Origin: Clostridia bacterium
Lineage (GTDB): Bacteria > Bacillota > Clostridia > Oscillospirales > Acutalibacteraceae
Assembly (NCBI GenBank): GCA_017942105.1
Contig: JAGAVE010000024.1
Coordinates: 1-44,697 of the forward strand
DNA length: 44,697 bases
Reading direction: 5' to 3'
In this document: positions 2,855 to 17,752 of the stretch, piece after piece
Layout: the number at the start of each line of letters is the position of its first letter
Numbering within the stretch: position 1 is the first letter of the stretch
Translations under genes and position numbers: made by a program
The notes under the pieces: model-generated
What the model saw: only the letters and a program-made list of their open reading frames with translations
The model's database searches: none
Told to the model about the DNA's origin: nothing

Positions 2855-3682
2855 ATGGTTAAACTGATAAGGAGAATAACTCTTGCTCTTTTCGTTTTGA
2901 TGCTGGCGGCTTTTATCGTGTTTTCTATCGTCGATAAAATTTCAACGGATATAACAATTCCTGTCATATTAATTGAATCTGATACTATTGAAGTTAGTGT
3001 CAAGGATAAAAAAGAGAAGCTCCTTGAGGGAGTAACTGCAATGGACCAAAAAGACGGTGATATTTCTGACAAGGTTCTTATTGAGTCAATTTCGGATTTT
3101 ATAGAGCCGGGAGTCTGTACGGTTACATATGCTGTCGCAGATTCAGATAAGCATGTTACAAAGCAAACGAGAACGGTAAAATATACTGATTATACAAAGC
3201 CTGAATTCTATATGAAGCGAGCTTTGGTTTACGGTGTTGACGAAGCTCTTGATATCAGAGCCGCAGTCGGTGCTCGTGACTGTATTGACGGCGATATCAG
3301 CGACAGAGTTGCGATTATAACTACAGACTATATTAGAAACACTGCCGGCGTATTTACCGTTTCTCTCCAGGTATCAAACAGTATGGGAGACACGATTTAT
3401 CTTGATGTGACGGTTCATGTTGAGGGTAACGAGACAATGGCGCCTGAAATTCAGCTCAAGAAGAGTCTTATTTATATTAAGAAGGGTGAAACACCGAACT
3501 TCGAAGACTATCTCGGTGATGTAACGGTCAATGGTGTTTTGATGAAACCTGAGGATGTTCAGTTGATGATTTCAACAAACTTTGATGCTGAAAATGAAGG
3601 AACATATAATGTGCATTACTACATTTCGACAAAAGAGGGCTATGAAGGTCATTCAATCCTGACTGTTGTTGTAGAGGAGTGA
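2855..3682 (+). CDS. Membrane-anchored protein with Ig-like (DUF5011-like) repeats
   Basis: A 275-aa protein with a short cytosolic N-terminus, one hydrophobic helix (about residues 7-25, LALFVLMLAAFIVFSIV) and an extracellular part of about three beta-rich modules (roughly 45-111, 112-190, 195-275). The pattern VTAMDQKDGDISDKV, V-x-YAVADS and GARDCIDGDISDRV is typical of DUF5011/HYR-like bacterial Ig domains. No catalytic motif is visible. It is the first gene of the operon holding the two Wzz/BY-kinases, 6 bases before the first. I infer an extracellular partner for the Wzz domains or a wall/glycan-binding scaffold. A lipobox is absent, so it is most likely a signal-anchored protein. Confidence 0.7.
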   Translation: MVKLIRRITLALFVLMLAAFIVFSIVDKISTDITIPVILIESDTIEVSVKDKKEKLLEGVTAMDQKDGDISDKVLIESISDFIEPGVCTVTYAVADSDKHVTKQTRTVKYTDYTKPEFYMKRALVYGVDEALDIRAAVGARDCIDGDISDRVAIITTDYIRNTAGVFTVSLQVSNSMGDTIYLDVTVHVEGNETMAPEIQLKKSLIYIKKGETPNFEDYLGDVTVNGVLMKPEDVQLMISTNFDAENEGTYNVHYYISTKEGYEGHSILTVVVEE

Positions 3683-3688
3683 TAAAGG

Positions 3689-5197
3689 GTGAAAAGGAAG
3701 TTTTCAGGCTTCTCAATTAATTTTGAGTGGAACAGCCTTATAAAAGATGTTGTGCGTAGCCTATGGGCAATTGTCCTTGCGGCTCTTATCGCACTTATGG
3801 GTATTCAAGTTGTTGAAAAAAGTATATATACGCCTACATATACGAGTACGGCGGTTCTCGTTGTCCGATCGAGAGTTGGTACATCGGGAACATTCAGCAG
3901 CCTTACTGCATCTACGGAAATGGCGAATATTTTTACTGAGGTTTTCAAGCAGAATTCAATAAAAAAGCTTGCTGCAGAGAACCTTGGTCTTGAAACCTTT
4001 GACGGAACGGTTACGACTTCTCTGACTGATTCGACAAACCTTCTGAATGTTTCTGTCAAAGCTGATGACCCGGAGCTTGCATTTAAACTGTTGACTTCAA
4101 TTCTGGAAATTTATCCTGAGGTTACCGAGGCTGTCTTTACAGATTCGGTTATAGATATTGTTTCCGAACCTAAAATGGCAACAATGCCGTCAAACTCGCG
4201 ACTTATGGTATATAGAAAGCATATTATCCTTCTTACGATGCTTTTTGAAGCGGGGCTGATTGTTCTTTGTTCATTGTTCAGAGGAACGGTTAAGGAGGAA
4301 AAGGGCTTTGCTGATAAAGTTGATTCAAAGCTTCTTGGTATAATATCTCATGAAAAGCCGCACCTTTCAAAGAAGGAACGATATAAGAAAAAGAAGCGAG
4401 CTTTGCTTATCAATGACGCTTATTCAAGTCTTCGTTTTACGGAAGATTATCAAAAGCTATGCACTAAAATTGAATACATCCATAAGAATCAGCAAAAGAA
4501 AACCTTTGTTGTTTCCAGTGTTGCGGAAAATGAGGGTAAATCAACTGTTGCGGCTAATATTGCGTTGGCTCTCTCAGACAGAGGGTATAGCGTTGTACTT
4601 CTTGACCTGGATGTTCACAAGCCTTCTATTTATAAGATTTTTGATTTTAATAACGAAATTGAAACGGATTTTTCCGATGTTCTTTCAAAGAAGGTTGAAA
4701 TCGGCGATTTCAAATTTTACAGATACAGAAAAACTTCTCTTACTATTGCATTTAATAAGCACAGCAACGAAAAGTCAGAGCTTTTAATTAACAATCAGGT
4801 AATTGACGATGTTCTTAAAGCTCTGAAAGAAAAAGCAGATTTTGTTATTATCGATACTCCGCCGATAAATGCTTCTGCAGATGCTATCGCAATAGCTGAG
4901 GTAGCAGACGCAACGGTGCTTGTTGTCAAAACGGACAGTGTTCCCGTTGAGGATATCAATGAGGCGATTCTTAATATTTCGGAATCGGGAGCAAATCTTG
5001 AAGGATGTATCCTAAATAATGTCTATAAGCCCTTCACTCTTTTCGGTCAGATGGGCGCAGACGAAAGAGGCTATTACGGACAAAGCAATTATTACGGCTA
5101 CTCGAAATCTTCCAAATTTCATACTACTGATTCAACTCAGAAAAAAGATGACGGCTTTTCTGCTGATTCCTTTGATAGCTTAAACCGTAACGAATAG
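3689..5197 (+). CDS. Wzz/BY-kinase fusion 1 (polysaccharide co-polymerase and tyrosine autokinase)
   Basis: A 502-aa protein joining a Wzz-type chain-length domain, with TM helices near residues 25-42 and 178-197 and an extracellular loop between, to a cytosolic bacterial tyrosine kinase. The kinase has a Walker A-like loop AENEGKST (279-286), Walker A' LLDLDVHKP (304-312) and Walker B FVIIDTPP (385-392). The C-terminus holds a tyrosine cluster at 462, 463, 468, 469 and 471, followed by a polar tail. In Firmicutes these activities are usually split (CpsC/CpsD, CapA/CapB); here they are fused as in proteobacterial Wzc. GTG start at 3689, with GAGGAG at 3674-3679. It should control polymer length or export by cycles of autophosphorylation. 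No cognate phosphatase is encoded in the window. Confidence 0.88.
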   Translation: MKRKFSGFSINFEWNSLIKDVVRSLWAIVLAALIALMGIQVVEKSIYTPTYTSTAVLVVRSRVGTSGTFSSLTASTEMANIFTEVFKQNSIKKLAAENLGLETFDGTVTTSLTDSTNLLNVSVKADDPELAFKLLTSILEIYPEVTEAVFTDSVIDIVSEPKMATMPSNSRLMVYRKHIILLTMLFEAGLIVLCSLFRGTVKEEKGFADKVDSKLLGIISHEKPHLSKKERYKKKKRALLINDAYSSLRFTEDYQKLCTKIEYIHKNQQKKTFVVSSVAENEGKSTVAANIALALSDRGYSVVLLDLDVHKPSIYKIFDFNNEIETDFSDVLSKKVEIGDFKFYRYRKTSLTIAFNKHSNEKSELLINNQVIDDVLKALKEKADFVIIDTPPINASADAIAIAEVADATVLVVKTDSVPVEDINEAILNISESGANLEGCILNNVYKPFTLFGQMGADERGYYGQSNYYGYSKSSKFHTTDSTQKKDDGFSADSFDSLNRNE

Positions 5198-5208
5198 GGT
5201 GATGAATT

Positions 5209-6699
5209 ATGAAGAAAAACGATGACAGAAAAGAATATAATGATTCACCTGTGGATGTAAGGGTTCTCTTGGGTGATATTTGGAGAGGTATTGTTAAATT
5301 CGGTTGGATTGCAGTAGTTCTTGCTGTAGTTCTTTCAGGAATTCAGTTTTACAGAAGCTATGTTAATTTCACTCCGGTATACAATGTTTCGGCTACCTTT
5401 ACCGTTCATACGGAAAACAGAGTTCTGACCGGTGATAACGGCATTGCTGCATATTCTTACTACTATGACAGGGAAACAGCCGACCAGCTTGCGACGGTTT
5501 TTCCGCATATAATAGGAAATAAAATTGTAAAAGCTAGAGTTTGCGAGGATCTCGGTGTTGCAAGTATGCCGGCATCGGTTACGGCAGCCTGCGTTTCGGG
5601 AACGAATATGATAACACTTACGGCTTCGGGAAGCGAACCGCAGCTTACTTACGATACGCTTCTTTCAGTAATTGAAAATTATCCGTCGGTTTCGGATTAC
5701 ATAATCGGCAGAACCAAGCTTGTTATGATAAATGAGCCGACGGTTCCTAAAAAGCCTGCAAACTCGGGAGCGTGGGTTTCGTCAGTCTTAAATGCGGCGG
5801 TTATCGGACTTGCTTTGGGTCTTGCCTGGATTATGATTTATGCATTTTTCAGAAAGACTATTCGTACTAAAGACGATATCCGTACAGTGCTTAATCAAAG
5901 ATGCATTGCCGTCCTGCCTCAGGTAGTTTTCAAAAAATACCGCCGTGAAATCGACAGGAGGATTCTTATTACCAATCCGCTTGTCGGCAGTGAATTTTTG
6001 GATTCTCTGCGTCTTTTGAAAAGCTCTTTTCAGAGCCTTGTTGCAGAAGGAAAGAATACGGTTATGATAACAAGTACGGCTCCTTCTGAAGGAAAAACCG
6101 TAGTTTCCGTTAATTTTGCATCAATTTTTGCCAAGGACGAAAAGAAGGTTCTTCTTATGGATATCGACCTTCGTGATTCCGGTATAAAAGAACTTTTGGG
6201 CGGCGAAAATGTTGCGAAGACAAAGAAAGAGGATACTAAGTATTATCGAATTGAAACAATCGATTCTCTTGGCTTTGATTTGTTTACATTCAAATCGAGA
6301 TCGGAAAGCGTGCAGAAAATAATGCGAACCGAGGAGATTATGAGAAGATTTGTCGGTCTTAAAAACGAGTATGATGTAATTTTTATCGATACTCCTCCTT
6401 GTGGCGTGATTTCCGATGCGTCCGTTATAGCTCAATCGGTCGATTCAATCGTATATGTAATCAGGGAAGATGCTGTTATGCAGACGGCTATCCGCGCAGG
6501 AATTAACTCAATGCTTGAAACTAAAGCGGACTTCCTCGGCTGTATTCTTAACGGAGCTGCCGGCGGTCTCGGCGGCTACAGCGGATATTATAGCTACGGC
6601 GGTTATTATAAGAATTACCGCTACGGCTATTCGTATGGTTACGGCCGTTCATATGGTTATGGCAGAAAAAATAAAAAAGATAAAAACAAAGCAAACTAA
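5209..6699 (+). CDS. Wzz/BY-kinase fusion 2 with long tyrosine-rich tail
   Basis: A 496-aa paralogue of the preceding gene, 11 bases downstream. It has a TM helix near 31-48, an extracellular region, a second TM near 193-214 and a BY-kinase with Walker A TAPSEGKT (290-297), A' MDIDLRDS (317-324) and Walker B VIFIDTPP (390-397). The tail (457-484) carries 13 tyrosines in 28 residues, alternating with Gly/Ser, then a basic KNKKDKNKAN end. The A' motif reads DIDLRDS rather than the usual DADLRRP. The tail is far denser than that of fusion 1, suggesting the pair could form hetero-oligomers with unequal phosphate-accepting capacity (inference). Start ATG 5209 follows GGGTGATG. Confidence 0.88.
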   Translation: MKKNDDRKEYNDSPVDVRVLLGDIWRGIVKFGWIAVVLAVVLSGIQFYRSYVNFTPVYNVSATFTVHTENRVLTGDNGIAAYSYYYDRETADQLATVFPHIIGNKIVKARVCEDLGVASMPASVTAACVSGTNMITLTASGSEPQLTYDTLLSVIENYPSVSDYIIGRTKLVMINEPTVPKKPANSGAWVSSVLNAAVIGLALGLAWIMIYAFFRKTIRTKDDIRTVLNQRCIAVLPQVVFKKYRREIDRRILITNPLVGSEFLDSLRLLKSSFQSLVAEGKNTVMITSTAPSEGKTVVSVNFASIFAKDEKKVLLMDIDLRDSGIKELLGGENVAKTKKEDTKYYRIETIDSLGFDLFTFKSRSESVQKIMRTEEIMRRFVGLKNEYDVIFIDTPPCGVISDASVIAQSVDSIVYVIREDAVMQTAIRAGINSMLETKADFLGCILNGAAGGLGGYSGYYSYGGYYKNYRYGYSYGYGRSYGYGRKNKKDKNKAN

Positions 6700-6732
6700 T
6701 TTCAGACAACCTGAAGGAATCGAGATGATTGT

Positions 6733-8454
6733 ATGAAAAAACCGGGAGAATATGCGAAGCTGTTCCGCTCTTTGGGTAAAGAGTGGAAATGGGTTTTGCA
6801 CTACGCTTTGCGTTATCGTCTGCAGATTCTGTTCTATGTTGTCGTAGGAATTCTGAGTACCGTTATGGGTCTGGGCTCAACGGTTGCTTCAAAATATCTC
6901 ATCGACTCTGTTGTTACGCATAACAGAGAAACGATTTTTGTCAGCGCCGCACTTACGATAGGTCTCGCACTTGTTCAGATTGCAATAAATGCGGTAACAT
7001 CGAGGTTAGCAATAATAATCGGCACCAAGGTTAGCAATGAGATACGAAGCAGTGTTTATGAGCATATAGTCTATTCCAACTGGGAGGATATCAGCAGATA
7101 TCATTCGGGCGATCTTCTTAATAGGATAGAAGGGGATGTTACTGCTCTTTCAAGCAGTATAATCTCGTTTGTTCCAAATCTCTTTACAAGGTTGACACAG
7201 TTTGTCGGTTGCCTTGCTATCGTTCTCTATTATGACCCGATAATGGCTTTGTTCGCTTTTCTCAGTGCACCGTTTCTTGCAATGACATCAAGAATTTCGG
7301 CGAAGATGATGAGAAAGTATAACGAGGAAAGCCGTGAGATGAACGGAAAAATCCTGGCTTTTTATTCTGAATCGATTCAAAATATTCAGACCATTAAGGC
7401 GTTTGGCATAACAAAGCGATATGTTGAGCAGCTTAAGGATTATTTACATAATTACAGAAAGCTGAGGCTTGACCATAGCAAGTTTTCTCTCGTTATGACA
7501 ACGGGTCTTTCAGTTATCGGTCTTGCTGTTGCTTATCTTTGTTACGGATGGGGTGTATGGCAACTGTGGAACGGTGCCATAACTTACGGTACGATGACTC
7601 TGTTTTTGCAGATTTCAGGAAAGCTTACCTCGTCATTCTCTTCGGTCGTTTCAATGCTTCCGACTTCAATTTCTATCGCAACCGCGGCAGGCAGAATTAT
7701 GGCTATAACGGAGCTCCCTGTAGAGGAATATGCTGATGACAGTAAGGCTGAGTCAATGCGGGCAGAGGCTGATTCTGCGGGAATATCTCTAAGCTGTGAA
7801 AACCTGACCTGCTCATATAAGGACGGAAGTGTTCCGGTTGTTAAAAATATTTCTTTCTATGTAAACCCGGGAGAAACTATTGCTCTTGTCGGGCCGTCGG
7901 GTGAGGGTAAGACCACTATTCTGCGTTTGATACTTGGTCTCATCAAGCCGGAAGGGGGAGCAATGACGATGTCTGTCAGAAACGGGACAACTCTCAATGT
8001 TTCTGAAAGCACAAGGCGGTTCTGTGCCTATGTTCCGCAAGAAAATCATGTCTTTTCGGGTACGATTGCTGATAATCTCAAAATAGTTAAGCCAGAAGCG
8101 CAGAATGAAGAGCTTATAACAGCTTTGAAGGCGGCGGATGCTTGGGGATTCATTGAAAAATTGCCGCTGGGTATTGATACGGTTATTAACGAAAAAGGCG
8201 TCAATTTCTCCGAAGGTCAGATTCAGCGTATCTCTATTGCAAGGGCGTTGCTGAGAAATGCACCCGTTCTTGTAATGGATGAGGCAACGAGCGCTCTCGA
8301 TGCAAAGACGGAAGAAACCGTTCTTGCCAATATAATGAAATCCTATCCGAACAGAACCTGTGTCATAACTACGCACAGACCCAGTATGCTTCAATACTGC
8401 GACAGAGTCTATCGTATAAACGAGGACGGAAGTCTTGTGAAAGTTGATAATTGA
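6733..8454 (+). CDS. ABC exporter, fused permease and ATPase, no peptidase domain
   Basis: A 573-aa half-transporter of the type-1 exporter fold: an N-terminal membrane domain (about 28-320) with several hydrophobic helices and a C-terminal ATPase with Walker A GPSGEGKTT (387-395), Q-loop VPQ (434-436), signature FSEGQ (492-496) in place of LSGGQ, Walker B VLVMDEATSALD (512-523) and an H-loop TTH. It probably works as a homodimer. There is no N-terminal C39 peptidase domain, so it would not cleave a double-glycine leader itself. It is the last gene of the BY-kinase operon, closed by a strong terminator, yet lies immediately before the peptide-maturation genes, where such transporters are common. 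The cargo could be the modified peptide or a glycan-linked lipid. Confidence 0.88.
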   Translation: MKKPGEYAKLFRSLGKEWKWVLHYALRYRLQILFYVVVGILSTVMGLGSTVASKYLIDSVVTHNRETIFVSAALTIGLALVQIAINAVTSRLAIIIGTKVSNEIRSSVYEHIVYSNWEDISRYHSGDLLNRIEGDVTALSSSIISFVPNLFTRLTQFVGCLAIVLYYDPIMALFAFLSAPFLAMTSRISAKMMRKYNEESREMNGKILAFYSESIQNIQTIKAFGITKRYVEQLKDYLHNYRKLRLDHSKFSLVMTTGLSVIGLAVAYLCYGWGVWQLWNGAITYGTMTLFLQISGKLTSSFSSVVSMLPTSISIATAAGRIMAITELPVEEYADDSKAESMRAEADSAGISLSCENLTCSYKDGSVPVVKNISFYVNPGETIALVGPSGEGKTTILRLILGLIKPEGGAMTMSVRNGTTLNVSESTRRFCAYVPQENHVFSGTIADNLKIVKPEAQNEELITALKAADAWGFIEKLPLGIDTVINEKGVNFSEGQIQRISIARALLRNAPVLVMDEATSALDAKTEETVLANIMKSYPNRTCVITTHRPSMLQYCDRVYRINEDGSLVKVDN

Positions 8455-8472: not shown

Positions 8473-8514
8473 CAAGCATAGCATCATTTTGAGTGTGGCT
8501 ATGCTTGCTTTTTT
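8473..8514 (+). terminator. Strong Rho-independent terminator after the ABC exporter
   Basis: CAAGCATAGC (8473-8482) pairs perfectly with GCTATGCTTG (8498-8507), loop 15 nt, followed by CTTTTTT (8508-8514). It separates the exporter operon from the peptide-maturation operon. Confidence 0.9.
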
Positions 8515-8558: not shown

Positions 8559-8587
8559 TTGATTTAATTTTCTGTTTGTGCTATACT
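8559..8587 (+). promoter_or_regulatory. Promoter of the peptide-maturation island
   Basis: TTGATT (8559-8564), 17-bp spacer, TATACT (8582-8587), with an extended -10 TG at 8579-8580. No other promoter or terminator as clear is seen until about position 35000, so it may also drive the glycan genes downstream. Confidence 0.8.
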
Positions 8588-8632
8588 TTACACAGAAAAT
8601 TGGGGTATTGCGCAGTTTTTGGAGTGATGCTT

Positions 8633-8899
8633 ATGTTTAAGTTGAAAGATGGCTTTATTATACGAGAGATTGGCAATCAAATAATGGCTGTACCTGTCGG
8701 AAAACAAACTTCGGAAATTCACGGTATGATAGCTTTAAGCGAAAGCGGAAAGCTTTTGTGGGAAAGGCTTAAAACGGGCGCTTCTGTCGAAGAGCTTGCG
8801 GCTGTTCTGCTTGAAAATTACGATGTTGAAAAAGAGGTTGCCGAAGCTGACGCAGATAAATTTATCAAGGCTTTGGCTGAGCAAGGAGCTTTATTGTAA
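8633..8899 (+). CDS. PqqD-like RiPP recognition protein
   Basis: An 88-aa protein of the PqqD superfamily, the small winged-helix fold (RiPP recognition element) that binds a precursor's leader and presents it to a maturation enzyme. The start is set at ATG 8633, 8 bases after GGAG (8621-8624); a longer frame to 8576 would overlap the -10 box and is rejected. The core pattern fits the family: IAL-x-ESGKLLWERLKTGASVEELAAVLLENYDV, then a helix ending in ALAEQGALL. The stop overlaps the radical SAM start (TAATG), implying coupled translation. The role as leader-binding partner of the next enzyme is inferred from family and context. Confidence 0.85.
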   Translation: MFKLKDGFIIREIGNQIMAVPVGKQTSEIHGMIALSESGKLLWERLKTGASVEELAAVLLENYDVEKEVAEADADKFIKALAEQGALL

Positions 8900-9951
8900 T
8901 GTTTGAATGTGAAAGCTTTGGAGAAGGCTTTTTAGCAAAGCTGAATCTTTGGGCGGTTGAGCATTGTGTGCCGTTCAGTACGACCTTCGAGCTGACGCCT
9001 TTTTGTAACTTCCGTTGTCCGATGTGCTATGTACGGCTTGAAAAGCATCAGGCGCAAAAGCAGGGTGAGATGCTCAAAATTGGTGATTGGCTTGAAATAG
9101 CTCGTCAGCTCAGGGATATGGGAACGCTGAGAATTACTCTTACCGGCGGTGAGGTTTTTACGCATCCTCAGTTTTGGGAGCTTTACGGTGAGCTTAATAA
9201 AATGGGATTTTGGATTTCAATTCTCTCAAACGGCTATCTTATAGATGATGACGCAATGGAAAAATTTCGTTTTTACGGAATGCCACATTCAGTAAAACTT
9301 AGCATATACGGAGCGAGTGATGAAACGTATGCAGAGGTCTGCGGTGTCAAGTCCGGATTTACAAGGCTCGGCAATGCGGTCAGGCTTTTGAAAGAAGCAG
9401 GTGTTCCGACGACGATGAACGCTACCGTCATAAGAGAAAATGCCGATGACCTGCAGGCAATGTACCTTTTCGCCCGTGAAAACAGGATCCCGTTTCAGCA
9501 CACAATTGCCGTTCTCAAATCCTCAAGAGGAGCAGAAAATACGGCGGAATCATCAAGACTCGGTTTTATTGATTTTTCAAAAGAGCTTACGGTTGATGAC
9601 CTTGAAAAAAGCAGGTATCCTGCCCCTGAAAATCCGTTTTCGCTGTGCGCAAGCTTCAGAAAATCGCTTTTTATAACCTGGAACGGTCATTTTCAGCTTT
9701 GCTCATTCCTCAGTGAGCCCTATATACAGTATTCGGGTAATACTTCGGATGATTTTAAAAAGCTTTATGAAAAACTTAGTGATTTAAAGAATCCTGCTGA
9801 ATGTGAAAATTGCAGGTGGAAGGAATTTTGTCAGAGATGTCCGGGTATTCTTTGCGCAGAAAGCGGTCATCCTGAAAAAACAGATAAAAATTTTTGTGAA
9901 ACTGCAAGGCAGCTTTGGTTGCTTTATGATAATAAAAAGAAGGGGATATGA
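8899..9951 (+). CDS. Radical SAM/SPASM peptide maturase
   Basis: A 350-aa radical SAM enzyme. C36-x3-C40-x2-C43 (CNFRCPMC) binds the SAM-cleaving [4Fe-4S] cluster and TGGE (82-85) is the SAM-contacting motif. The C-terminal SPASM region has C250, a G263-x4-C268 motif, C302-x2-C305-x5-C311-x2-C314, C319 and C333, enough for auxiliary Fe-S clusters. Such enzymes install carbon-carbon, thioether or ether crosslinks, or epimerise or cleave residues in ribosomal peptides, using a PqqD partner, which is encoded immediately upstream. Its stop overlaps the candidate precursor frame. No PqqD domain is fused to it, in keeping with the separate gene. The exact reaction cannot be read from sequence. Confidence 0.9.
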   Translation: MFECESFGEGFLAKLNLWAVEHCVPFSTTFELTPFCNFRCPMCYVRLEKHQAQKQGEMLKIGDWLEIARQLRDMGTLRITLTGGEVFTHPQFWELYGELNKMGFWISILSNGYLIDDDAMEKFRFYGMPHSVKLSIYGASDETYAEVCGVKSGFTRLGNAVRLLKEAGVPTTMNATVIRENADDLQAMYLFARENRIPFQHTIAVLKSSRGAENTAESSRLGFIDFSKELTVDDLEKSRYPAPENPFSLCASFRKSLFITWNGHFQLCSFLSEPYIQYSGNTSDDFKKLYEKLSDLKNPAECENCRWKEFCQRCPGILCAESGHPEKTDKNFCETARQLWLLYDNKKKGI

Positions 9952-9953
9952 TT

Positions 9954-10241
9954 ATGAAGAAAAAATATGTAGCGCCGGAAAGTAAGCTTATTGCCCTCAA
10001 CCTTAACGAAAGTATCGCTATTTCAGGCGGTATATCCGAGGTTGGCGGTATGGCTGTTCTTAAGTTCTATTCAGCGCAGGACGGATGCAGAAAGCTCTAC
10101 ACTGAACGAGTTGCCGTTTCAGAGCATCTTTGGGCAGGCGGCGAGTTTTTGGATTATTATAACGACTTTATGGCTAAGGTTCAGTCTCAGGGTGCTTATG
10201 AGGCATACTTCATGTGCTTCAACGGCTTGCAGAATGTATGA
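9954..10241 (+). CDS. Candidate RiPP precursor with double-glycine leader
   Basis: A 95-residue protein between the radical SAM enzyme and the kinase. Start ATG 9954 lies 8 bases after AAGGGG (9940-9945); ATG 9948, which overlaps the upstream stop, would add two residues. The N-terminus MKKKYVAPESKLIALNLNES reads like a conserved leader, and residues 19-26 (ESIAISGG) end in a Gly-Gly that could be a cleavage site. The remaining ~69 residues are rich in aromatics and contain two cysteines (C45, C88), two further GG pairs (31-32, 62-63) and six tyrosines. This is long for a typical core, so only part may be released. The stop overlaps the kinase start (ATGA). The precursor role is inferred from position and leader form. 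Confidence 0.7.
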   Translation: MKKKYVAPESKLIALNLNESIAISGGISEVGGMAVLKFYSAQDGCRKLYTERVAVSEHLWAGGEFLDYYNDFMAKVQSQGAYEAYFMCFNGLQNV

Positions 10242-10999
10242 TTAGATTAGCGGATTTACCGGTTGAGTGGCAAGAGGACCGTCTAAACTTTGCAAGAGGT
10301 TTTATTACAGGTTCAGACGAAAAACCTGTAATAAAGCTAAGCTTTAGTTATAATTTTTCGGAATGTCACTCTGTTCAGTATGCAGATTGTGCATCAGATC
10401 ATTTCCTTAGAGGTACATTCGGAGATATTCTCCTTGCAAACAGCGATTGGAGCGAAGCGACATCCTTTTGCTTGCCGAAGTCAGATAAGGATTATGCACT
10501 TGTGCTTGCAGCTCTTTGCTCAAGATTCTCGTATTTCAATACATTGCTCGTGCATTCGTCGCTTATCGTTTATCAGGGCAAAGGAATTATCTTTACCGGA
10601 AAATCAGGGATAGGTAAAACTACCCAGGCTGAGCTCTGGAATAAGTATAAGGGCGCTGAGATCGTAAACGGAGACAAGGCGTTTGTCCGTGAAGTTGACG
10701 GCAAATTCTTTGCTTATGGGTTACCATGGAAAGGTTCTTCGGAATATTGCCTTAATAAGAGCGCAGAGTTGGTCGGCATTGTTGCTCTTGAACAGTCAAA
10801 TGAGAATTGTATCAGTACTCTTGAAAATTCTGTCGAAAGACTTTTGCCACATATATTTTTACCTCATTGGGATAAGCTTTGCCTTGCGAAAGCTCTTGAT
10901 ACCTTCGATAGTTTAATAAAAAATGTCCCATTGTGGTTGCTTGAATGCAGACCCGACGAAGAGGCAGTCAGAGTGGCGTGTGAAAAAATATTTAGGTGA
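10238..10999 (+). CDS. HPr-kinase-like P-loop protein
   Basis: A 253-aa protein with the P-loop GKSGIGKTT (121-129) embedded in IIFTGKSGIGKTTQAELW, preceded by LLVHSSLI (103-110) and followed by EIVNGDKAFV (141-150), the arrangement of HPrK-like kinases. Stand-alone members are found in RiPP clusters, where in lasso-peptide systems they phosphorylate a serine of the precursor. The start is placed at ATG 10238, overlapping the precursor stop; ATG 10214 would add eight residues. It lacks the N-terminal domain of true HPr kinases and is smaller. No C-terminal serine exists in the neighbouring precursor, so the acceptor would be an internal Ser/Thr or another substrate. Confidence 0.8.
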   Translation: MIRLADLPVEWQEDRLNFARGFITGSDEKPVIKLSFSYNFSECHSVQYADCASDHFLRGTFGDILLANSDWSEATSFCLPKSDKDYALVLAALCSRFSYFNTLLVHSSLIVYQGKGIIFTGKSGIGKTTQAELWNKYKGAEIVNGDKAFVREVDGKFFAYGLPWKGSSEYCLNKSAELVGIVALEQSNENCISTLENSVERLLPHIFLPHWDKLCLAKALDTFDSLIKNVPLWLLECRPDEEAVRVACEKIFR

Positions 11000-11002
11000 G
11001 TT

Positions 11003-11479
11003 ATGGATAAGTTGAATTGTTCTGTTGCTGAAATATCAGAGCTTGTCGATGAGCTGATTGATGAGAATGCTGTTTTACCGTTTTATGTTTCAGGAAGCAG
11101 TATGAATCCCTTCCTCATCAGCAGACGGGATATAGTTTATCTGAAAAAACCTCAGCCTGACGATTTGAAAAAAGGAAGGATTCTTCTTTTTCGCAGAAAA
11201 GATGGTGCATTGGTTTTGCACAGAGTTAAATGTGTTTTAAATGATTCAGTTTTTGTGATGCTTGGGGATGCGCAGAGTCAGACGGAAAAAATTGATAAAG
11301 CGCAAATCGTTGCTGTTGTCAGCGAAATCGAGCGAAAAGGAAAAATCAGAAAAGCAGAGTCATCTTACTGGAAAACAATTTACGCAATTTGGCGGATGCT
11401 TACCCCTTTCAGACCGTTCATAATGCGTGTATGGTTTAAAATAAGACGAATAAAAAGAAAAAATCGAGCGGAGTTTTAG
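11003..11479 (+). CDS. S24/S26-type signal peptidase-like protein
   Basis: A 158-aa protein with the serine peptidase motif SGSSMNPFL (30-38; likely nucleophile S33) and RILLFR-x8-LHRV (59-75). H73 stands where Ser-His type signal peptidases carry the general base, unlike the Ser-Lys bacterial type. The segment GDAQSQTEKI (88-97) resembles the family's downstream GD-x2 motif. There is no clear N-terminal TM helix; the C-terminus is amphipathic and strongly basic. AGGTGA precedes ATG 11003. Short S26-like proteins recur in PqqD/HPrK-like kinase clusters. It may remove the leader of the precursor after export or modification (inference), since the nearby exporter lacks a peptidase domain. Confidence 0.8.
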   Translation: MDKLNCSVAEISELVDELIDENAVLPFYVSGSSMNPFLISRRDIVYLKKPQPDDLKKGRILLFRRKDGALVLHRVKCVLNDSVFVMLGDAQSQTEKIDKAQIVAVVSEIERKGKIRKAESSYWKTIYAIWRMLTPFRPFIMRVWFKIRRIKRKNRAEF

Positions 11480-11482
11480 GAT

Positions 11483-12646
11483 ATGAATCAGGTATCTGAG
11501 TTTATGACACAGCTTTTAAAAAGCGAAATCGCAGAAGAAGAGCTTTGTTGTGAGAAAAAAATCGCATTAACCGATAAATTCCTTATAGATTTGCTCGTGT
11601 TGTCGCGAAAGCATCAGGTTGCCCATATCGTAGCTTCAGCTTTATCCAATAACGGTTATCTTGAAAAATCACCGCAGAAAGGTGAGTTTTTGAATGAAAT
11701 TTACATGGCTGTATATGCTCAGGAAAAAATGAATGAGGTTTTCGAAGAAATTTCTTCAGCTTTTCAGCTGAATGAAATACCGTACATTCCTCTTAAAGGC
11801 CTGGTTATCCGTGGTTTGTATCCTCAGCCGTGGATGAGAACAAGTTGTGATATTGATATTCTCGTTAAAGAAAAAGATATTAACAGAGCCGAAAAAGTAA
11901 TTATGTCTTTGGGAAGCTATAAAAAAACAGGTGAAAGTAAGCACGATGTGATTTTTAAATCAGAAAACGGAATCGTTCTTGAGCTTCACTATAAATTGCT
12001 CGGAAACAAGAAATCTCCGCTGTATGTCAAGGAGCTTTCAAAAGTATGGGAGATGGCAGAGCCTGACCCCGTAAATAAATTCCGTTTTAATCTGAGTGAT
12101 GATATTTTTTATTATTATCACATTATGCATATGGCAAAGCATTTCAGAATAGGCGGTTGCGGTATTCGTCCGTTTATTGATCTTTGGCTGATTGAAAAAA
12201 CAAACCGTGACTTTTCAGGTGCAAAGCGAATGCTTGAAAAAGGAAATATTGATATCTTTGCAGATAATGCCGTAAAACTCAGCAGGGTCTGGTTTTCGAA
12301 TGAAAAACACAGCGGAACGACTGCTAAAATGCAGGATTTTATAATAGAGGCAGGGTCTTTTGGCTCTCATAAAACGAGGCTTATTGCAAACTCACAGCGG
12401 TCGGGAGGAAAATTGAAATTCATCTTTTCAAGGGTATTTGTTCCGTACAGCTATCTTAAAAGGGATTATCCGATTCTTGAAAAATGCCCGATTTTGACTC
12501 CTTGGTGCGAAATTTGCCGATTGTTTTCGTTTTTGTTCGGAAAAAAGAAGATTTTCAAAGATAAATATATAGAAAATCTGAACAAGGAAGCTAATGCTCC
12601 GACGGACAGTATGGAAAATCTTTTCTATGATTTAGGTTTAAAGTAA
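11483..12646 (+). CDS. PF14907-type nucleotidyltransferase family protein
   Basis: A 387-aa protein matching the NTP_transf_5 pattern: IPYIPLKGLVIRGLYP (99-114), R119, then D123-x-D125 (CDIDILVKE), the metal-binding pair of the fold, and a later ELHYKL. Members are frequent beside PqqD and HPrK-like kinase genes; in lasso-peptide systems a homologue is linked to sugar addition onto a phosphorylated peptide. Here it closes the maturation block, 3 bases after the peptidase gene, and its stop is only 27 bases before the aminotransferase gene that opens the glycan block. That location fits an enzyme joining peptide and sugar chemistry, but this is inference. Confidence 0.8.
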   Translation: MNQVSEFMTQLLKSEIAEEELCCEKKIALTDKFLIDLLVLSRKHQVAHIVASALSNNGYLEKSPQKGEFLNEIYMAVYAQEKMNEVFEEISSAFQLNEIPYIPLKGLVIRGLYPQPWMRTSCDIDILVKEKDINRAEKVIMSLGSYKKTGESKHDVIFKSENGIVLELHYKLLGNKKSPLYVKELSKVWEMAEPDPVNKFRFNLSDDIFYYYHIMHMAKHFRIGGCGIRPFIDLWLIEKTNRDFSGAKRMLEKGNIDIFADNAVKLSRVWFSNEKHSGTTAKMQDFIIEAGSFGSHKTRLIANSQRSGGKLKFIFSRVFVPYSYLKRDYPILEKCPILTPWCEICRLFSFLFGKKKIFKDKYIENLNKEANAPTDSMENLFYDLGLK

Positions 12647-12673
12647 AAAATATAGTAATTAAGGATGATTATT

Positions 12674-13933
12674 GTGGAAAAGTTCAGTAAAAAAATATGG
12701 TTGGCAACTCCGACAATGCATGGCGAAGAGCTTGAATATATTACCGAAGCCTACGAAACTAACTGGATGTCTACAGTCGGTGCCAACATCAATGAGGTTG
12801 AGCGCATAGCCGCTGAAAAGGCTGGGAAGAAATATGCGGTCGGCCTTTCCTCTTGTACTGCGGCGCTTCATCTTACGGTCAAGGCGGCAGGTGAAAAGCT
12901 TTACGGCAGACCGGACATAAGCCACGGCGCGCTTGAAAATAAAAGAGTTTTTTGCTCTGATATGACTTTTGCCGCAACGCTCAATCCCGTAGTTTACGAA
13001 GGCGGAATTCCCGTTTTCATTGATACTGAGGAAGATTCTTGGAATATGGATCCCGTTGCTCTCGAAAAGGCTTTTGAGCTTTATCCTGATGTTAAACTCG
13101 TTGTTTACGCTGAGCTTTATGGCTTCCCGGGAAGAATAGACAAGATAAAAGAAATCTGCGAAAAACACGGTGCGCTCCTTATCGAGGATGCGGCAGAAGC
13201 AATGGGTGCAACGGTTGTCGGCAGGCAGTGCGGTTCTTTCGGTGACTATTCCGCAATCAGTTATAACGGAAATAAAATTATTACGGGTTCTGCAGGCGGA
13301 TGCCTTCTTACTGATGATAAGGAGGTTGCAAACAAGGCAAGCAAATGGTCAACTCAGGCGAGAGAAAATGCTCCTTGGTATCAGCACGAAGAGGTCGGCT
13401 ATAATTACCGTATGAGTAATGTTGTTGCGGGTGTTATCCGCGGTCAGTACAAGTATCTTGAAGAGCATATTGAGCGCAAAAAGGCGGTCTATGAGAGATA
13501 TCGTGATGGCTTCAGAGACCTTCCTGTTAAAATGAACCCTATTGTAGACGAAACTGAGCCGAATTATTGGCTTTCGGCAATGATAATCGATAAAGAATAT
13601 ATGTGCCCGCAGGTGAGAGATGATTCCAAGGCGCTTTATGTTAAAGAAAAAGGCAAAACCTGCCCGACGGAAATTCTCGAAAAGCTTGCAAGCTATAATG
13701 CAGAGGGCAGACCGATATGGAAACCGATGCATATGCAGCCTATGTACCGTATGCACGAGTTTGTTACAAAAAGCGGTTCTTTAAGAGCTAAAACAAATGC
13801 TTATATCGAAGGCGGAATTTTTGATGTAAGTATGGATATATTCGAAAGAGGCTTATGTTTGCCCAGTGATATAAAAATGACAGCGGATGAGCAGAACGCA
13901 ATTATTGAAATAATCAGAAGCTGCTTTGATTGA
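12674..13933 (+). CDS. DegT/DnrJ/EryC1-family sugar aminotransferase (EpsN-like)
   Basis: A PLP-dependent aminotransferase of about 419 aa that adds an amino group to a nucleotide-linked keto-sugar. The start is set at GTG 12674, 8 bases after AAGGA (12661-12665); ATG 12665 overlaps that site. The beginning, KIWLATPTMHG-x5-YITEAYETNW, resembles EpsN/PglE-type enzymes. Further motifs are VGLSSCTAALHL (56-67), the cofactor-binding EDAAEAMG (171-178) and the likely Schiff-base lysine K201 in SYNGNKIITG. EpsN-type enzymes act on UDP-4-keto-6-deoxy-GlcNAc to give 4-amino sugars, with a transferase and acetyltransferase, and both are present here. The partner dehydratase is not adjacent; CapE at 29557 or an enzyme elsewhere would have to supply the keto sugar. 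Confidence 0.9.
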   Translation: MEKFSKKIWLATPTMHGEELEYITEAYETNWMSTVGANINEVERIAAEKAGKKYAVGLSSCTAALHLTVKAAGEKLYGRPDISHGALENKRVFCSDMTFAATLNPVVYEGGIPVFIDTEEDSWNMDPVALEKAFELYPDVKLVVYAELYGFPGRIDKIKEICEKHGALLIEDAAEAMGATVVGRQCGSFGDYSAISYNGNKIITGSAGGCLLTDDKEVANKASKWSTQARENAPWYQHEEVGYNYRMSNVVAGVIRGQYKYLEEHIERKKAVYERYRDGFRDLPVKMNPIVDETEPNYWLSAMIIDKEYMCPQVRDDSKALYVKEKGKTCPTEILEKLASYNAEGRPIWKPMHMQPMYRMHEFVTKSGSLRAKTNAYIEGGIFDVSMDIFERGLCLPSDIKMTADEQNAIIEIIRSCFD

Positions 13934-13945
13934 GGTTGTTGAGGT

Positions 13946-14605
13946 ATGTACGAAAAGTTTTTTAAAAGGGTTATAGATTTTATTCTTTCTTTCCTGGCCC
14001 TTGCTGTGCTTTCGCCGGTTATGCTGGTTTTGATAATCGTCGGTGCGGTTGCAATGAAAGGCAATCCTTTCTTTACGCAGAAGCGGCCGGGAAAAATAAA
14101 TAAAAAAACAGGTGAAGAAAAAATATTCAAGCTTATTAAATTCAGGACGATGAGCAATAAAAAAGACAAAAACGGAAATCTTTTGCCCGATGAACAGCGT
14201 TTAAACGGTTACGGCAGATTTCTTCGAAGCACATCGCTTGATGAGTTGCCTGAGCTATGGAATATTCTCAAAGGTGATATGTCCCTGGTCGGACCCAGAC
14301 CCTTACTTATCAGCTACATACCGTATTATACACAAACTGAACGAATGAGGCATGATGTCAGACCGGGACTTACGGGTCTTGCTCAGGTAAACGGAAGGAA
14401 TTTCGTAAGCTGGGATAACAGATTGGCTTATGATGTTCAATATGTTGAAAATATAACATTCTTTGTTGATGTTAAGATAATTTTTATGACTGCGTTCCAG
14501 TTTGTTAAAAAGCAGGATGTTGCAGTTGATACAAATAAAGTTGAACCAAATTTTGCTGCGGAAAGGCAAGCAAAAATGCAGGGTAGTCAAGAGGTACATT
14601 TATGA
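13946..14605 (+). CDS. Second initiating sugar-1-phosphate transferase (EpsL-like)
   Basis: A 219-aa PF02397 sugar transferase with an N-terminal hydrophobic hairpin (about 12-36), FTQKRPGKI, KLIKFRTM, LDELPELWNILKGDMSLVGP and RPGLTGLAQVNGR. It is shorter at the N-terminus than the one at 1964 and has the compact form of PglC/EpsL enzymes, which transfer an N-acetylated bacillosamine-type or similar sugar phosphate to the lipid carrier. Directly following an EpsN-like aminotransferase, it probably uses that sugar. Its stop overlaps the next start (ATGA). A locus with two initiating transferases implies two glycans or two lipid-linked starters. Confidence 0.92.
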   Translation: MYEKFFKRVIDFILSFLALAVLSPVMLVLIIVGAVAMKGNPFFTQKRPGKINKKTGEEKIFKLIKFRTMSNKKDKNGNLLPDEQRLNGYGRFLRSTSLDELPELWNILKGDMSLVGPRPLLISYIPYYTQTERMRHDVRPGLTGLAQVNGRNFVSWDNRLAYDVQYVENITFFVDVKIIFMTAFQFVKKQDVAVDTNKVEPNFAAERQAKMQGSQEVHL

Positions 14606-15588
14606 ACATTTTAATTTTAAGTGCAGGAACAAGAAATAAAATTGTTCGATATTTTAAAGAAAAAGTTGGTGAAAACGGCAGGGTCATTGCAACGGATATG
14701 AGTGAGTTTGCTCCTGCTGTTTATGAAGCTGACAAGTTTTATCAGGTTCCTAAGATAACAACAGAAGGGTATATTGATACAATTCTTGATATTTGCAGGA
14801 AGGAAGAGATCAACGGTCTTTTTACTCTTATTGACCCTGAGCTCTCTTTGCTTGCTGAAAACAAGGAAAAGTTTGACGCTCTGGGAGTAACTGTTATCGG
14901 CTCATCGTACGAGCTTTGTGAGCGTGCATTTGATAAGATGAAAATGTTCAGATGGCTCAGCGATAACGGTTATAAGTGCGCACGGAGCTATACTGATAAG
15001 GAAAAGTTCTATGCGGATGTTGAAGCAGGACTGATTACATATCCCGTCTTTGTAAAGCCCATCTGCGGAAGTGCAAGTATTTCCATTGCCAAGGTTTGTG
15101 ATAAGCAATCAATTGAAAATCTTTTTGACCACGATTCCGATCTTATGATTCAGGAATATCTCAACGGTCAGGAAATCGGCGCTGATGTTTATATTGATAT
15201 GATAAGCGGTGAGGTCGTTTCGATTTTTACAAAGAAAAAGCTTCTTATGAGAGCGGGCGAAACGGATAAGGCTGTGTCTTTCAAGGATGATAAGCTTTTT
15301 GAACTTGTTCGCAGATTTGCTGAAGAAAGCGGTTGGCGCGGACAGATTGATATCGATATTTTTGATGTCGATGGTGAGTATTACATTTCAGAGGTCAATC
15401 CGCGTTTTGGCGGAGGATATCCACATGCTTATGAATGCGGATGCGACCATATAACGATGATTCTCAATAACATCGACGGCAAAGCGAACGAAAAGCAAAT
15501 CGGCCGCTATGAAGATGATGTTTATATGATGAAATATATTGAACTCAGCATAAGACGCGGCGAAGATTGCGTAGCTGAGAAGCTTTGA
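14602..15588 (+). CDS. ATP-grasp ligase
   Basis: A 328-aa ATP-grasp protein of the carbamoyl-phosphate-synthase-like type: an N-terminal Rossmann part (MNILILSAGTRNKIVRYF), a central segment with FVKPICGSASISI and the pair MIQEYLNGQEIGADVY, and a C-terminal catalytic part DIDIFDVDGEYYISEVNPRFGGGYP with the Mg-binding E-x-NPR motif. ATP-grasp enzymes join a carboxylate to an amine or thiol through an acyl phosphate. Members like this occur in polysaccharide clusters and may attach amino acids to sugars. Overlaps the preceding gene by 4 bases. The substrate is unknown; the acid could be one of the uronic acids made by this locus. Confidence 0.85.
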   Translation: MNILILSAGTRNKIVRYFKEKVGENGRVIATDMSEFAPAVYEADKFYQVPKITTEGYIDTILDICRKEEINGLFTLIDPELSLLAENKEKFDALGVTVIGSSYELCERAFDKMKMFRWLSDNGYKCARSYTDKEKFYADVEAGLITYPVFVKPICGSASISIAKVCDKQSIENLFDHDSDLMIQEYLNGQEIGADVYIDMISGEVVSIFTKKKLLMRAGETDKAVSFKDDKLFELVRRFAEESGWRGQIDIDIFDVDGEYYISEVNPRFGGGYPHAYECGCDHITMILNNIDGKANEKQIGRYEDDVYMMKYIELSIRRGEDCVAEKL

Positions 15589-15644: not shown

Positions 15645-16859
15645 ATGAATGTTCTGCTTTTATCAATAGGAAACCTTAAAGATGTCCGTCAGCACGAGAT
15701 CTATACTGATCTTCTGCGTGAATTCAGAGACCGTGGGCATTCCGTGTATGCAATCAGTACATATGAAAGAAGAGTAAACAAGGAAACCGAATTCAAAGAG
15801 GAGTTCGGAATCAAAATGCTCCGTGTGAAAATCGGAAACATAACCAAATGCGGAACGCTTGAAAAGGGTATATCTACCGTTACTCTTCAGTCAGAGTTTA
15901 AAAAGGCTATTAAAAAATATCTTTCGGATGTAGTTTTTGACCTTGTTCTCTATTCAACACCGCCGATAACCTTATGCAGTGTTGTTGAATATATTAAGAA
16001 GCGTGACGGAGCGCATACATATCTTATGCTTAAGGATATTTTCCCTCAGAACGCGCTTGATATTGGAATTCTTGCTGAGGGCGGAGTAAAGGGAGCGATT
16101 TATAAATATTTTAAAGCGAAAGAAAAGAAGCTTTACGAAATCTCAGATTCGATTGGATGTATGTCTCCTGCAAATGTTCAATATCTTCTTGAACATAACC
16201 CGGAACTGGATGCAAGCAAGGTTGGTCTTTGCCCTAATTGCATTGAGGTTCAGGATTTTGTTCTTAATAAAGAAGAGATTAATCTTATGAGAGATAAATA
16301 CGGAATCCCGAAAGATAAGCGTGTTTTCGTTTACGGAGGAAATCTGGGCAAGCCTCAGAATGTTCCCTTTATAATCGAATGTCTCAAAACGCAGACAGAA
16401 AACAAGAAGGCGTATTTTCTTATCGTCGGTGACGGAGCTGAATACGGAACTCTTGAAAAGTTTTTCAAAGAGAATAAGTGCGATAATATGCGCCTTATGA
16501 AAACGATGCCGAAGGATGATTACGACAGAATGACGGCGGCTTGCGATATAGGATTGATTTTCCTTGACTATCGTTTTACGATTCCGAATTACCCGAGCAG
16601 AATGCTTGCGTATATGCAGACGGCGCTTCCTGTTCTTGCCTGTACGGATGAAGCAACTGATATTGCGCAGACGGTAACGGACGGCGGCTTCGGATGGTGG
16701 TGTCCCAGTAATTCTCCGAAGGTGTTTTCAGCACTCGTGGAAAAAATAATCGATGAACCGCTCGAAGAGAAAAAAGAAAAGAGCTTCAGCGTGTTAAAAG
16801 AACAGTTTGATGTTTCGAGAGCCTATGAGCTTATTATGGAAAGATACAACCGAAAGTGA
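15645..16859 (+). CDS. Glycosyltransferase, GT4-like
   Basis: A 404-aa GT-B glycosyltransferase. The start is ATG 15645 with GGAG at 15636-15639; an upstream in-frame ATG at 15606 has no ribosome binding site. The protein begins MNVLLLSIGNLKDVRQHEIY and the C-terminal half holds VFVYGGNLGKPQNVPFII, FLIVGDGAE, and GLIFLDYRFTIPNYPSRMLAYM, the nucleotide-sugar binding region of GT4 enzymes. A 56-base gap precedes it, with a small bulged hairpin (15609-15628) just before the ribosome binding site. It probably adds the second or a later sugar of the repeat. Donor and acceptor are unknown. Confidence 0.85.
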   Translation: MNVLLLSIGNLKDVRQHEIYTDLLREFRDRGHSVYAISTYERRVNKETEFKEEFGIKMLRVKIGNITKCGTLEKGISTVTLQSEFKKAIKKYLSDVVFDLVLYSTPPITLCSVVEYIKKRDGAHTYLMLKDIFPQNALDIGILAEGGVKGAIYKYFKAKEKKLYEISDSIGCMSPANVQYLLEHNPELDASKVGLCPNCIEVQDFVLNKEEINLMRDKYGIPKDKRVFVYGGNLGKPQNVPFIIECLKTQTENKKAYFLIVGDGAEYGTLEKFFKENKCDNMRLMKTMPKDDYDRMTAACDIGLIFLDYRFTIPNYPSRMLAYMQTALPVLACTDEATDIAQTVTDGGFGWWCPSNSPKVFSALVEKIIDEPLEEKKEKSFSVLKEQFDVSRAYELIMERYNRK

Positions 16860-16864
16860 GTATT

Positions 16865-17752
16865 ATGAATAAGTTAAGAATTTTATTCTCGCAGTTGTTT
16901 ATAATTTTGTTTGGAAAAAGAACTCGTCTTATCAGCGATGAGCTCTTTAACAGAGTTTTGTTTTTTCTCAGAACAGGGAGAAAAGCAAACCTGAAAAATC
17001 CTGAAACCTTCAACGAAAATGTCCTTGCAAGAAAAGTTTATTGCGATGAATATGCTCTTTCTTTTTATACCGATAAATACGAAGTACGAAAATATATTGA
17101 GGAAAAAATCGGCAAAGAGTATGTCGTTCCTGCACTTGGTTTGTGGAATTCGGTTGATGAAATTGATTTTTCAGCTTTGCCGCAAAGCTTTGTTTTAAAA
17201 GCTACTCACGGTTCAGGCTGGAATGTTGTTGTAAAGGATAAGTCTCGATTTGTCCCCGAAGCTGATTGTAAAAAGTTAAAGAAAGCGCTTAACTGCAATT
17301 ATTATCATAAAAGCCGTGAAAAAAACTACAGAGACATTCAGCCTCGTATTCTTTGTGAAAAATATGTAAGCACAGAAAATGAAAAAGGACTTATTGATTT
17401 CAAGGTTTATTGTTTCAACGGAAAAGCAGGATTCTTTGAAGTCACTTATACGCTGAATGATAAAATACATCAGACTTTATTTTATCCGGACTTCAGTCTG
17501 GTCGGAATGAAAAACGGACGGGAAGAGGCTCAGATTGATTCAGTTGTCCGCGAGAAAAAGGATAAAATCATTTCTCTTGCTGAGATACTTGCTTCTGAGT
17601 TTGAATTCGTCAGGGTTGATTTTTACATAGCTGATGAAAATATATTTTTCTCTGAATTGACTTTTCATTCGGGCGGCGGTATAAGACCGATAAATCCTGA
17701 AAAGGTTGACAGAGATATGGGCAGTTTTTTTGAAAAGGGAGGTAAAGCATAA
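16865..17752 (+). CDS. TupA-like ATP-grasp protein
   Basis: About 295 aa, matching the TupA-like ATP-grasp family named after the teichuronopeptide biosynthesis protein of alkaliphilic Bacillus. Visible features are the N-terminal LKNPETFNENVLARK motif, SFVLKATHGSGWNVVVKDKS (nucleotide-binding), ILCEKYV and the late FEFVRVDFYIADENIFFSEL-TFHSGGG, the ATP-grasp acidic loop. ATG 16865 is chosen because the GTG at 16856 overlaps the previous stop, but the latter is possible. Related proteins are annotated as glycosyltransferases or as ligases adding amino acids to uronic-acid polymers. Its co-occurrence with a second ATP-grasp and uronic-acid enzymes supports a role in decorating the glycan (inference). 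Confidence 0.8.
   Translation: MNKLRILFSQLFIILFGKRTRLISDELFNRVLFFLRTGRKANLKNPETFNENVLARKVYCDEYALSFYTDKYEVRKYIEEKIGKEYVVPALGLWNSVDEIDFSALPQSFVLKATHGSGWNVVVKDKSRFVPEADCKKLKKALNCNYYHKSREKNYRDIQPRILCEKYVSTENEKGLIDFKVYCFNGKAGFFEVTYTLNDKIHQTLFYPDFSLVGMKNGREEAQIDSVVREKKDKIISLAEILASEFEFVRVDFYIADENIFFSELTFHSGGGIRPINPEKVDRDMGSFFEKGGKA

Follow-up and report, generated by a model that had tools for sequence, protein, structure and literature searches.

Introduction

The closest described counterparts of the genes considered here belong to clusters for phosphorylated or glycosylated lasso peptides (paeninodin, pseudomycoidin and Bsf), which likewise encode a PqqD-type recognition element (RRE) for ribosomally synthesized and post-translationally modified peptides (RiPPs), an HPr-kinase-like kinase (HPrK) and a PF14907-type nucleotidyltransferase (NT), together with an ATP-binding cassette (ABC) exporter and a precursor leader carrying a Y..P motif (PMC9266682, PMC10368454; papers are cited here from excerpts). 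In this work, we analyzed a single contig of 44,697 bases, referred to as the window, from a gut Clostridia genome of 2.3 Mb that is 79.7% complete, where such tailoring genes accompany a radical S-adenosylmethionine enzyme (rSAM) with a SPASM domain within a capsule/exopolysaccharide (EPS) gene cluster. On balance, we lean towards a leader-guided rSAM RiPP cassette that is built into the capsule/EPS locus and whose product would work together with EPS assembly.

The tailoring steps of the lasso systems differ in their targets. PadeK phosphorylates the C-terminal Ser of its substrate whereas, in pseudomycoidin, PsmK and PsmN add a phosphate and then hexoses on the phosphoserine; the excerpt leaves open whether PsmN is itself the sugar transferase or nucleotidylates first (PMC9266682). 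BsfK acts on Ser3 of the core, which indicates that the phosphosite of lasso-type kinases can vary, and it is accelerated by the RRE B1, the leader motif being YxxPxL (PMC10368454). Lasso clusters of rumen Butyrivibrio unite an NT, an HPrK, a glycosyltransferase 2 and EpsH, and differ from the window in that lasso enzymes are present and the excerpt mentions no rSAM (PMC7533575).

With regard to the maturase, sactipeptide-type enzymes (SkfB) and the PqqE/PqqD pair combine an rSAM/SPASM protein with an RRE, as does the window. To our knowledge, neither system includes a kinase, an NT or an EPS context. The SynChlorMet cassette, represented in NCBIfam by the ScmC, ScmE and ScmF models, likewise joins rSAM/SPASM enzymes to an HPrK-like protein, and it also has a PqqD-like protein. 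Among NCBIfam models, ScmE ranked second for the window rSAM and first for the rSAM at another locus (L092), and ScmC weakly matched the HPrK of locus L111 (2.3e-4) but not that of the window. As these scores lay far below the cut-offs (75.9 vs. 400; 20.6 vs. 125), the genes cannot be assigned to SynChlorMet, although its models are the nearest named set; the word itself was not found in the open-licence literature. Within titles and the beginnings of abstracts in open-licence PMC literature, no description of a PqqD–rSAM–peptide–HPrK/NT set in an EPS context was found, and a term look-up in individual papers on RREs and on Bacteroidales RiPPs returned no mention of HPr or polysaccharide. Hence, although each element (rSAM RiPPs, tailoring by HPrK/NT, EPS loci) is already known, their stable combination appears to be new.

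Results

A radical SAM cassette with a lasso-like tailoring kit

Six plus-strand genes, tightly packed between positions 8633 and 12646, form the RiPP-like island that a sequence-only reading of the window had described. They encode a PqqD-family protein (8633–8899), an rSAM/SPASM maturase (8899–9951), a 95-aa precursor peptide (9954–10241), an HPrK-like putative peptide kinase (10238–10999), an S26B-type Ser/His peptidase that is probably a leader protease (11003–11479) and a PF14907 NT (11483–12646). Genes one to four directly adjoin or overlap one another, with a TAATG overlap at the first junction, a 2-base gap or ATGA at the second and ATGA at the third; the HPrK start is more probably ATG at 10238 than GTG at 10214. 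By rSAM sequence, close relatives of the window are metagenome-assembled genomes of ruminant-gut Clostridia.

The PqqD protein is a putative leader-binding RRE by family match (Pfam PqqD, 1.3e-15), and its best NCBIfam match, below the cut-off, was lasso_PqqD_Bac. In the rSAM (PF04055, 3.9e-26), the CX3CX2C motif was present in 79/79 relatives and the SPASM motif CX2CX5CX2-3C in 77/79, the window being counted in both, as expected for a maturase of this class; the nearest solved enzymes were SkfB (6efn, 3.1e-20), followed by PqqE (6c8v, 5.3e-13). The NT scored 131.4 bits against a PF14907 cut-off of 31.2 (5.6e-38), with KG and DxD motifs invariant in 13/13 sequences. The HPrK and S26 assignments are weak by family score, yet their putative active-site residues hold. 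For HPrK, the Pfam match to Hpr_kinase_C (7.8e-4) was below the cut-off, and a profile of 36 relatives found HPr kinases as best PDB matches, at E-values of just 0.0045–0.012 with HPr kinase/phosphatase 1ko7 on top (0.0045); nevertheless, the Walker A motif GxSGxGKTT and its following Asp, NGD and PWxGSS were invariant in 36/36. The S26-type peptidase gave no Pfam match and a below-cut-off NCBIfam match (TIGR02228, 5.5e-7), but the Ser33/His73 pair (SxSMxP and HR boxes) was invariant in 15/15.

Compared with paeninodin, pseudomycoidin and Bsf, the window has an rSAM/SPASM enzyme instead of B2 and cyclase, an S26 peptidase, a core of about 70 aa without a C-terminal Ser, and an EPS locus as its setting. 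The lasso B2 family (PF13471) was found in 0/18 genomes of the genus, and no asparagine-synthase-like cyclase was recognized by Pfam among 40 scanned proteins of the window. The absence of these two proteins, the rSAM in their place and the presence of a lasso-type kinase and PF14907 enzyme had all been anticipated from the sequence, whereas the supposed absence of a B1 protein did not hold: a B1-type element is present, because lasso B1 is itself a member of the PqqD family of RREs. The lasso leader motif YxxPxL is not reproduced either, since Y and P are invariant (18/18) but the invariant Leu lies at P+4, not at P+2. As judged from these comparisons, the cassette is not a lasso peptide cluster, but its tailoring kit is lasso-like.

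The small open reading frame behaves like a RiPP precursor

The small open reading frame (ORF) behind the rSAM gene had no Pfam or NCBIfam match; likewise, no NCBIfam model matched any precursor tested. Orthologues of the rSAM (59–100% identity) occur in 6/18 genus genomes, its own included, and a homologous small ORF lies behind each of the six. An alignment of 18 such sequences (type A) showed invariant Y5, P8, S10, S24, F38, C45, Y49, Y68 and C88, with Thr or Ser at position 50. Seven precursor pairs gave dN/dS values of 0.05–0.17, indicative of purifying selection, although these ratios are rough since dS exceeded 1 in 5/7 pairs; an eighth pair was saturated. Residues 1–24 (9954–10025), which include Y5..P8 and E.IA.S24, were more alike than the remainder in 153/153 pairs, with mean pairwise identities of 0.65 and 0.38, respectively. 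The pattern is thus that of a RiPP, namely an encoded precursor with a conserved leader and a more variable core.

When 300 genomes of the family were scanned with a profile of the precursor, seven matches were obtained, 7/7 of them between rSAM and HPrK genes. Five of the seven are profile members or identical to members, and only those at loci L171 and L172 are independent: L171 has the complete core set, and in L172 the match is confined to the leader, behind which stands an unrelated 59-aa core. Selection, position and leader conservation therefore suggest that the ORF behaves like a RiPP precursor, as first proposed from the sequence. The alternative that it is no precursor and that the genes are unrelated neighbors finds a foothold in the missing family match, but is contradicted by these same three lines of evidence and by the gene fusions described below, and we consider it highly improbable. 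The C-terminal residue is Ser in 0/18 precursors, unlike the substrate of the paeninodin-type kinase, so a phosphosite would have to lie elsewhere in the peptide.

An AlphaFold model from the 18 sequences reached a mean pLDDT of 60.6, with residues 8–23 below 50 and helices predicted with moderate confidence at 65–79 and 82–88. In the PDB, the precursor profile also matched designed repeat proteins (Tako8, 2.7e-5, 22 positions), which was judged to be chance, no single stretch passing by itself.

A second precursor type (type B; 36 sequences) fills the same position at 35 loci, among them loci of Olsenella, Mediterraneibacter, Drancourtella and Pseudoflavonifractor, and its alignment (29/36 sequences) has Y, G, W and C at invariant positions as well as W residues that are near-invariant. 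Its profile gave a single match, already known (G013), over 391 genomes of the class, and thus either type B is rare in this sample or the profile is weak.

Conservation and fusions of the gene set

An rSAM-alignment scan of named genomes yielded 79 loci (from the best 80 of 259 candidates), one of which, L058, was dropped as a duplicate; 65 loci were testable for PqqD and HPrK, 52 for S26, NT and ABC genes, and 42, with full flanks, for CpsC/D. Both PqqD and HPrK lay no more than 2 kb from the rSAM in 58/65 loci (PqqD in 62, HPrK in 58), and an ABC gene within 5 kb in 47/52. By contrast, S26 was found within 4.5 kb in 19/52 loci and NT in 25/52; accordingly, the expectation that the genes are conserved together in relatives was borne out for the core but not for the last two genes. 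The PqqD–rSAM–peptide–HPrK set recurs in Clostridia and Coriobacteriia, including the isolates Drancourtella massiliensis An770, Mediterraneibacter glycyrrhizinilyticus An427 and Olsenella sp. An285, in which the hypothesis can be tested.

Within the genus, the S26–NT pair is missing behind HPrK in three of the six cassette genomes (G301, G302 and G306), where it stands adjacent at another place. The pair is therefore retained in 6/6, and its similar flanks in the three genomes point to probably one move. At L039 (9464–10603) an rSAM of this type is split into pieces of 158 and 214 aa and apparently broken, a one-TAG match being listed; at L084 (3153–11086) the kit is rearranged, with PqqD–S26, HPrK, ABC, two peptides with an ENIASS leader, a glycosyltransferase 2 and the rSAM, and no CpsC/D near.

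Since PqqD tails from fusion proteins had contaminated the HPrK profile (it matched PqqD proteins of 88–96 aa at 1e-4 to 1e-5), fusions were rechecked with Pfam. For the HPrK–PqqD fusions, Pfam recovered both domains in L062 and the PqqD part in L070, while that of L039 is based on the custom profile, with a P-loop match only in Pfam. In the NT–S26 fusion of L130, Pfam supported only PF14907, the S26 part being recognized from a custom profile and visible motifs. Glycosyltransferase–PF14907 fusions were found in L079 and L081, both domains being present in Pfam. Taken together, the fusions suggest a working order in which the kinase is served by PqqD, S26 is a partner of NT, and NT works with sugars. 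In the two glycosyltransferase fusion genes (L079, 3890–5869; L081, 4051–5898), PF14907 lies behind a DXD-type glycosyltransferase that also matches Caps_synth, and the fusion gene directly precedes the Ig–CpsC/D genes.

The cassette is located within a capsule/EPS cluster

The cassette sits between genes for EPS chain-length control and chain initiation, a setting that the sequence-only reading missed and that relatives keep. Upstream, all on the plus strand, are a bacterial-surface Ig-like protein heading the EPS machinery genes (2855–3682; PF16403, 8.9e-12) and retained next to the cassette in 34/42 full-flank loci, two Wzz–CpsD-type proteins, the first a chain-length/tyrosine-kinase-like protein (3689–5197; Pfam Wzz and AAA_31, NCBIfam TIGR01007 above cut-off) and the second matching TIGR01007 below cut-off (5209–6699; 3.9e-24), and an MsbA-like ABC exporter that lacks a peptidase domain and is probably a peptide exporter (6733–8454; ABC_membrane, ABC_tran). 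Downstream, on the same strand, follow a DegT-family aminotransferase (12665–13933; PF01041) and an initiating sugar-phosphate transferase (13946–14605; PF02397, 1.2e-57), and the cluster runs on to about 34970 with glycosyltransferases, Wzy, Wzx, a pyruvyltransferase and sugar-nucleotide genes. These flanks on both sides place the cassette inside a capsule/EPS cluster.

A CpsC/D-type gene (E ≤ 1e-20, within 9.5 kb) was found beside the cassette in 34/42 full-flank loci (36 at a looser cut-off), that is, in 16/16 among L053–L077 and in 18/26 of the others, compared with a chance expectation of about 0.035 such genes per 20 kb (68 matches in 18 genus genomes). This contact is kept across several different gene orders. 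Sugar-specific genes, on the other hand, were seldom shared, with Wzy in 2/78, Wzx in 2/78, pyruvyltransferase in 4/78, UDP-glucose dehydrogenase in 6/78 and FnlA-like genes in 4/78 loci, numbers that are undercounts because flanks extended over at most 10 kb. The EPS link would consequently be to the assembly machinery. A tie to one particular sugar chemistry was considered and rejected, as both ATP-grasp proteins of the window (PylC-like and TupA-like) were kept in 0/78 loci. This ATP-grasp pair (14602–15588 and 16856–17752) lies inside the EPS cluster and perhaps adds amino acids to the glycan. One EPS region of the window also contains two PF02397 initiating sugar-phosphate transferases (1964–2683 and 13946–14605). 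In another genome (G304, locus L132, 1019–10427), an Ig–CpsC/D–CpsC/D–ABC block that is 75–83% identical to that of the window is followed by a large surface-protein gene.

As for transcription, the six genes had been proposed to share one promoter. A matching string, TTGATT-17-TATACT with TG ahead of the second hexamer, does exist on the plus strand at 8559–8587, and its place is what speaks for it; such matches are not enriched as a class (48 in the window vs. a shuffle mean of 38.3, sd 6.0). Between the ABC gene and the cassette, a predicted hairpin followed by a T-run (8473–8514, plus strand) may act as a terminator or attenuator. A hairpin followed by Ts was present in 12/12 listed loci with an ABC–PqqD gap of more than 100 bases, a count that includes the window's own and in which L057 and L058 are identical. 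Downstream of the sixth gene, no plus-strand terminator-like site was listed in the 19 bases before the following EPS gene starts, and therefore the transcript may continue.

Discussion

From the gene content, coupling, conservation, fusions and co-location observed, we infer a maturation pathway in which each chemical step, the order of the steps, their sites, export and function would follow by analogy with known systems. PqqD would bind the conserved leader (Y..P) and present the precursor to the rSAM/SPASM enzyme, which would crosslink or otherwise modify the core, probably at C45 and/or C88 or at aromatic residues close by. Relying on PqqD as well, the HPrK-like kinase would phosphorylate a core Thr or Ser, with [ST]50 as the best candidate; that PqqD may present the substrate to the kinase as well is suggested by the HPrK–PqqD fusions of L062, L070 and L039 and by the acceleration of BsfK by B1 (PMC10368454). 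The PF14907 enzyme could then transfer a nucleotidyl or sugar group onto the phosphate, a link to sugars that is proposed because of the L079 and L081 fusions and the hexoses that PsmN places on phosphoserine (PMC9266682). S26 would remove the leader near the invariant A22-x-S24 and may act together with NT, given that both are fused in L130 and that the pair is kept in 6/6 cassette genomes. Finally, the MsbA-like transporter would export the product, which might act with the proteins for EPS chain length and assembly (CpsC/CpsD type, Ig-like protein).

In a bolder version, the peptide and the polysaccharide would be covalently joined: after crosslinking by the rSAM and phosphorylation, the PF14907 enzyme, which some relatives have fused to a capsule-type glycosyltransferase, would make a phospho-sugar on or to which EPS is built or attached, so that the capsule is peptide-primed or peptide-anchored under CpsC/CpsD control. 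This appears to us unlikely. Should the general proposal hold, surface-coat assembly in gut bacteria would bring together the chemistry of rSAM peptides, the phosphorylation of peptides and the transfer of sugars, and RiPPs would do more than serve as antibiotics and signals. The activity of PF14907 enzymes would also become easier to settle, the glycosyltransferase–PF14907 fusions providing a direct substrate system.

Several observations weigh against a cassette dedicated to EPS assembly. Eight of the 42 full-flank loci have no CpsC/D gene; an rSAM-free HPrK–ABC–PqqD–S26 kit of the window's own genome sits outside the EPS locus; and G304 (68% complete) has the Ig–Cps–Cps–ABC block with no cassette and no HPrK or rSAM match, which implies that the EPS genes can stand alone and that the ABC gene may belong to EPS. 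Furthermore, the window's glycan-specific genes are rare beside cassettes (0–6/78 loci), S26 and NT are inconstant neighbors of the rSAM, shared ancestry inflates all locus counts, and the Mantel correlation between rSAM and EPS genes (r 0.50–0.79) was obtained without species-tree control and is consequently not used as proof. The CpsC/D-free loci, the kit found without EPS genes and the G304 block, together with the fact that SkfB, the nearest solved enzyme, belongs to a killing factor, would fit an rSAM RiPP that serves an independent function (as a bacteriocin or a signal) and is merely housed in the capsule locus, a known variable hot spot. We regard this as a serious contender, if distinctly less probable than a product working with EPS assembly, since the genes that stay linked to the cassette, through different gene orders, are those of the constant machinery (Ig, CpsC/D, ABC) and not the variable sugar genes, and since glycosyltransferase–NT fusions occur in L079 and L081; no immunity gene was recognized, though none was specifically searched for.

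The small ORF could also encode a folded protein that assists the EPS machine, undergoes a single maturation by the rSAM and is switched by phosphorylation, with no secreted product. Its core of about 60 residues, conserved along its length with invariant C45, Y49, Y68 and C88, and the two helices modeled with moderate confidence would agree with such a role, but the low mean pLDDT, the unrelated core behind the same leader in L172, and an ABC exporter and leader-like N-terminus suggestive of secretion make it quite unlikely in our view. A lasso cluster that has acquired an rSAM would account for PqqD, HPrK and NT, all known from lasso clusters (PMC7533575, PMC9266682), and for the Y..P leader; nonetheless, given that B2 was found in none of the 18 genus genomes and a cyclase in none of the 40 scanned window proteins, and that the core is unlike the 16–23 residues of lasso peptides, we give it hardly any credence. 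A RiPP cassette acting with EPS assembly thus remains the reading we favor.

Related kits

Parts of the kit recur in other arrangements. In L062 (6439–9575) and L070 (2–3318), a second rSAM set stands beside the main cassette, with HPrK and PqqD fused and a different short peptide whose leader reads MKKAYSTP or MKKTYETP. The window's genome contains a second kit elsewhere (L157, G000:C22, about 4175–7630, minus strand), consisting of a 53-aa peptide with the leader MTYMRPE, HPrK, an ABC exporter, PqqD and S26, with no rSAM or cyclase nearby. In G302 (L156, 6415–9528), where no peptide was recognized, HPrK, ABC, PqqD and S26 recur.

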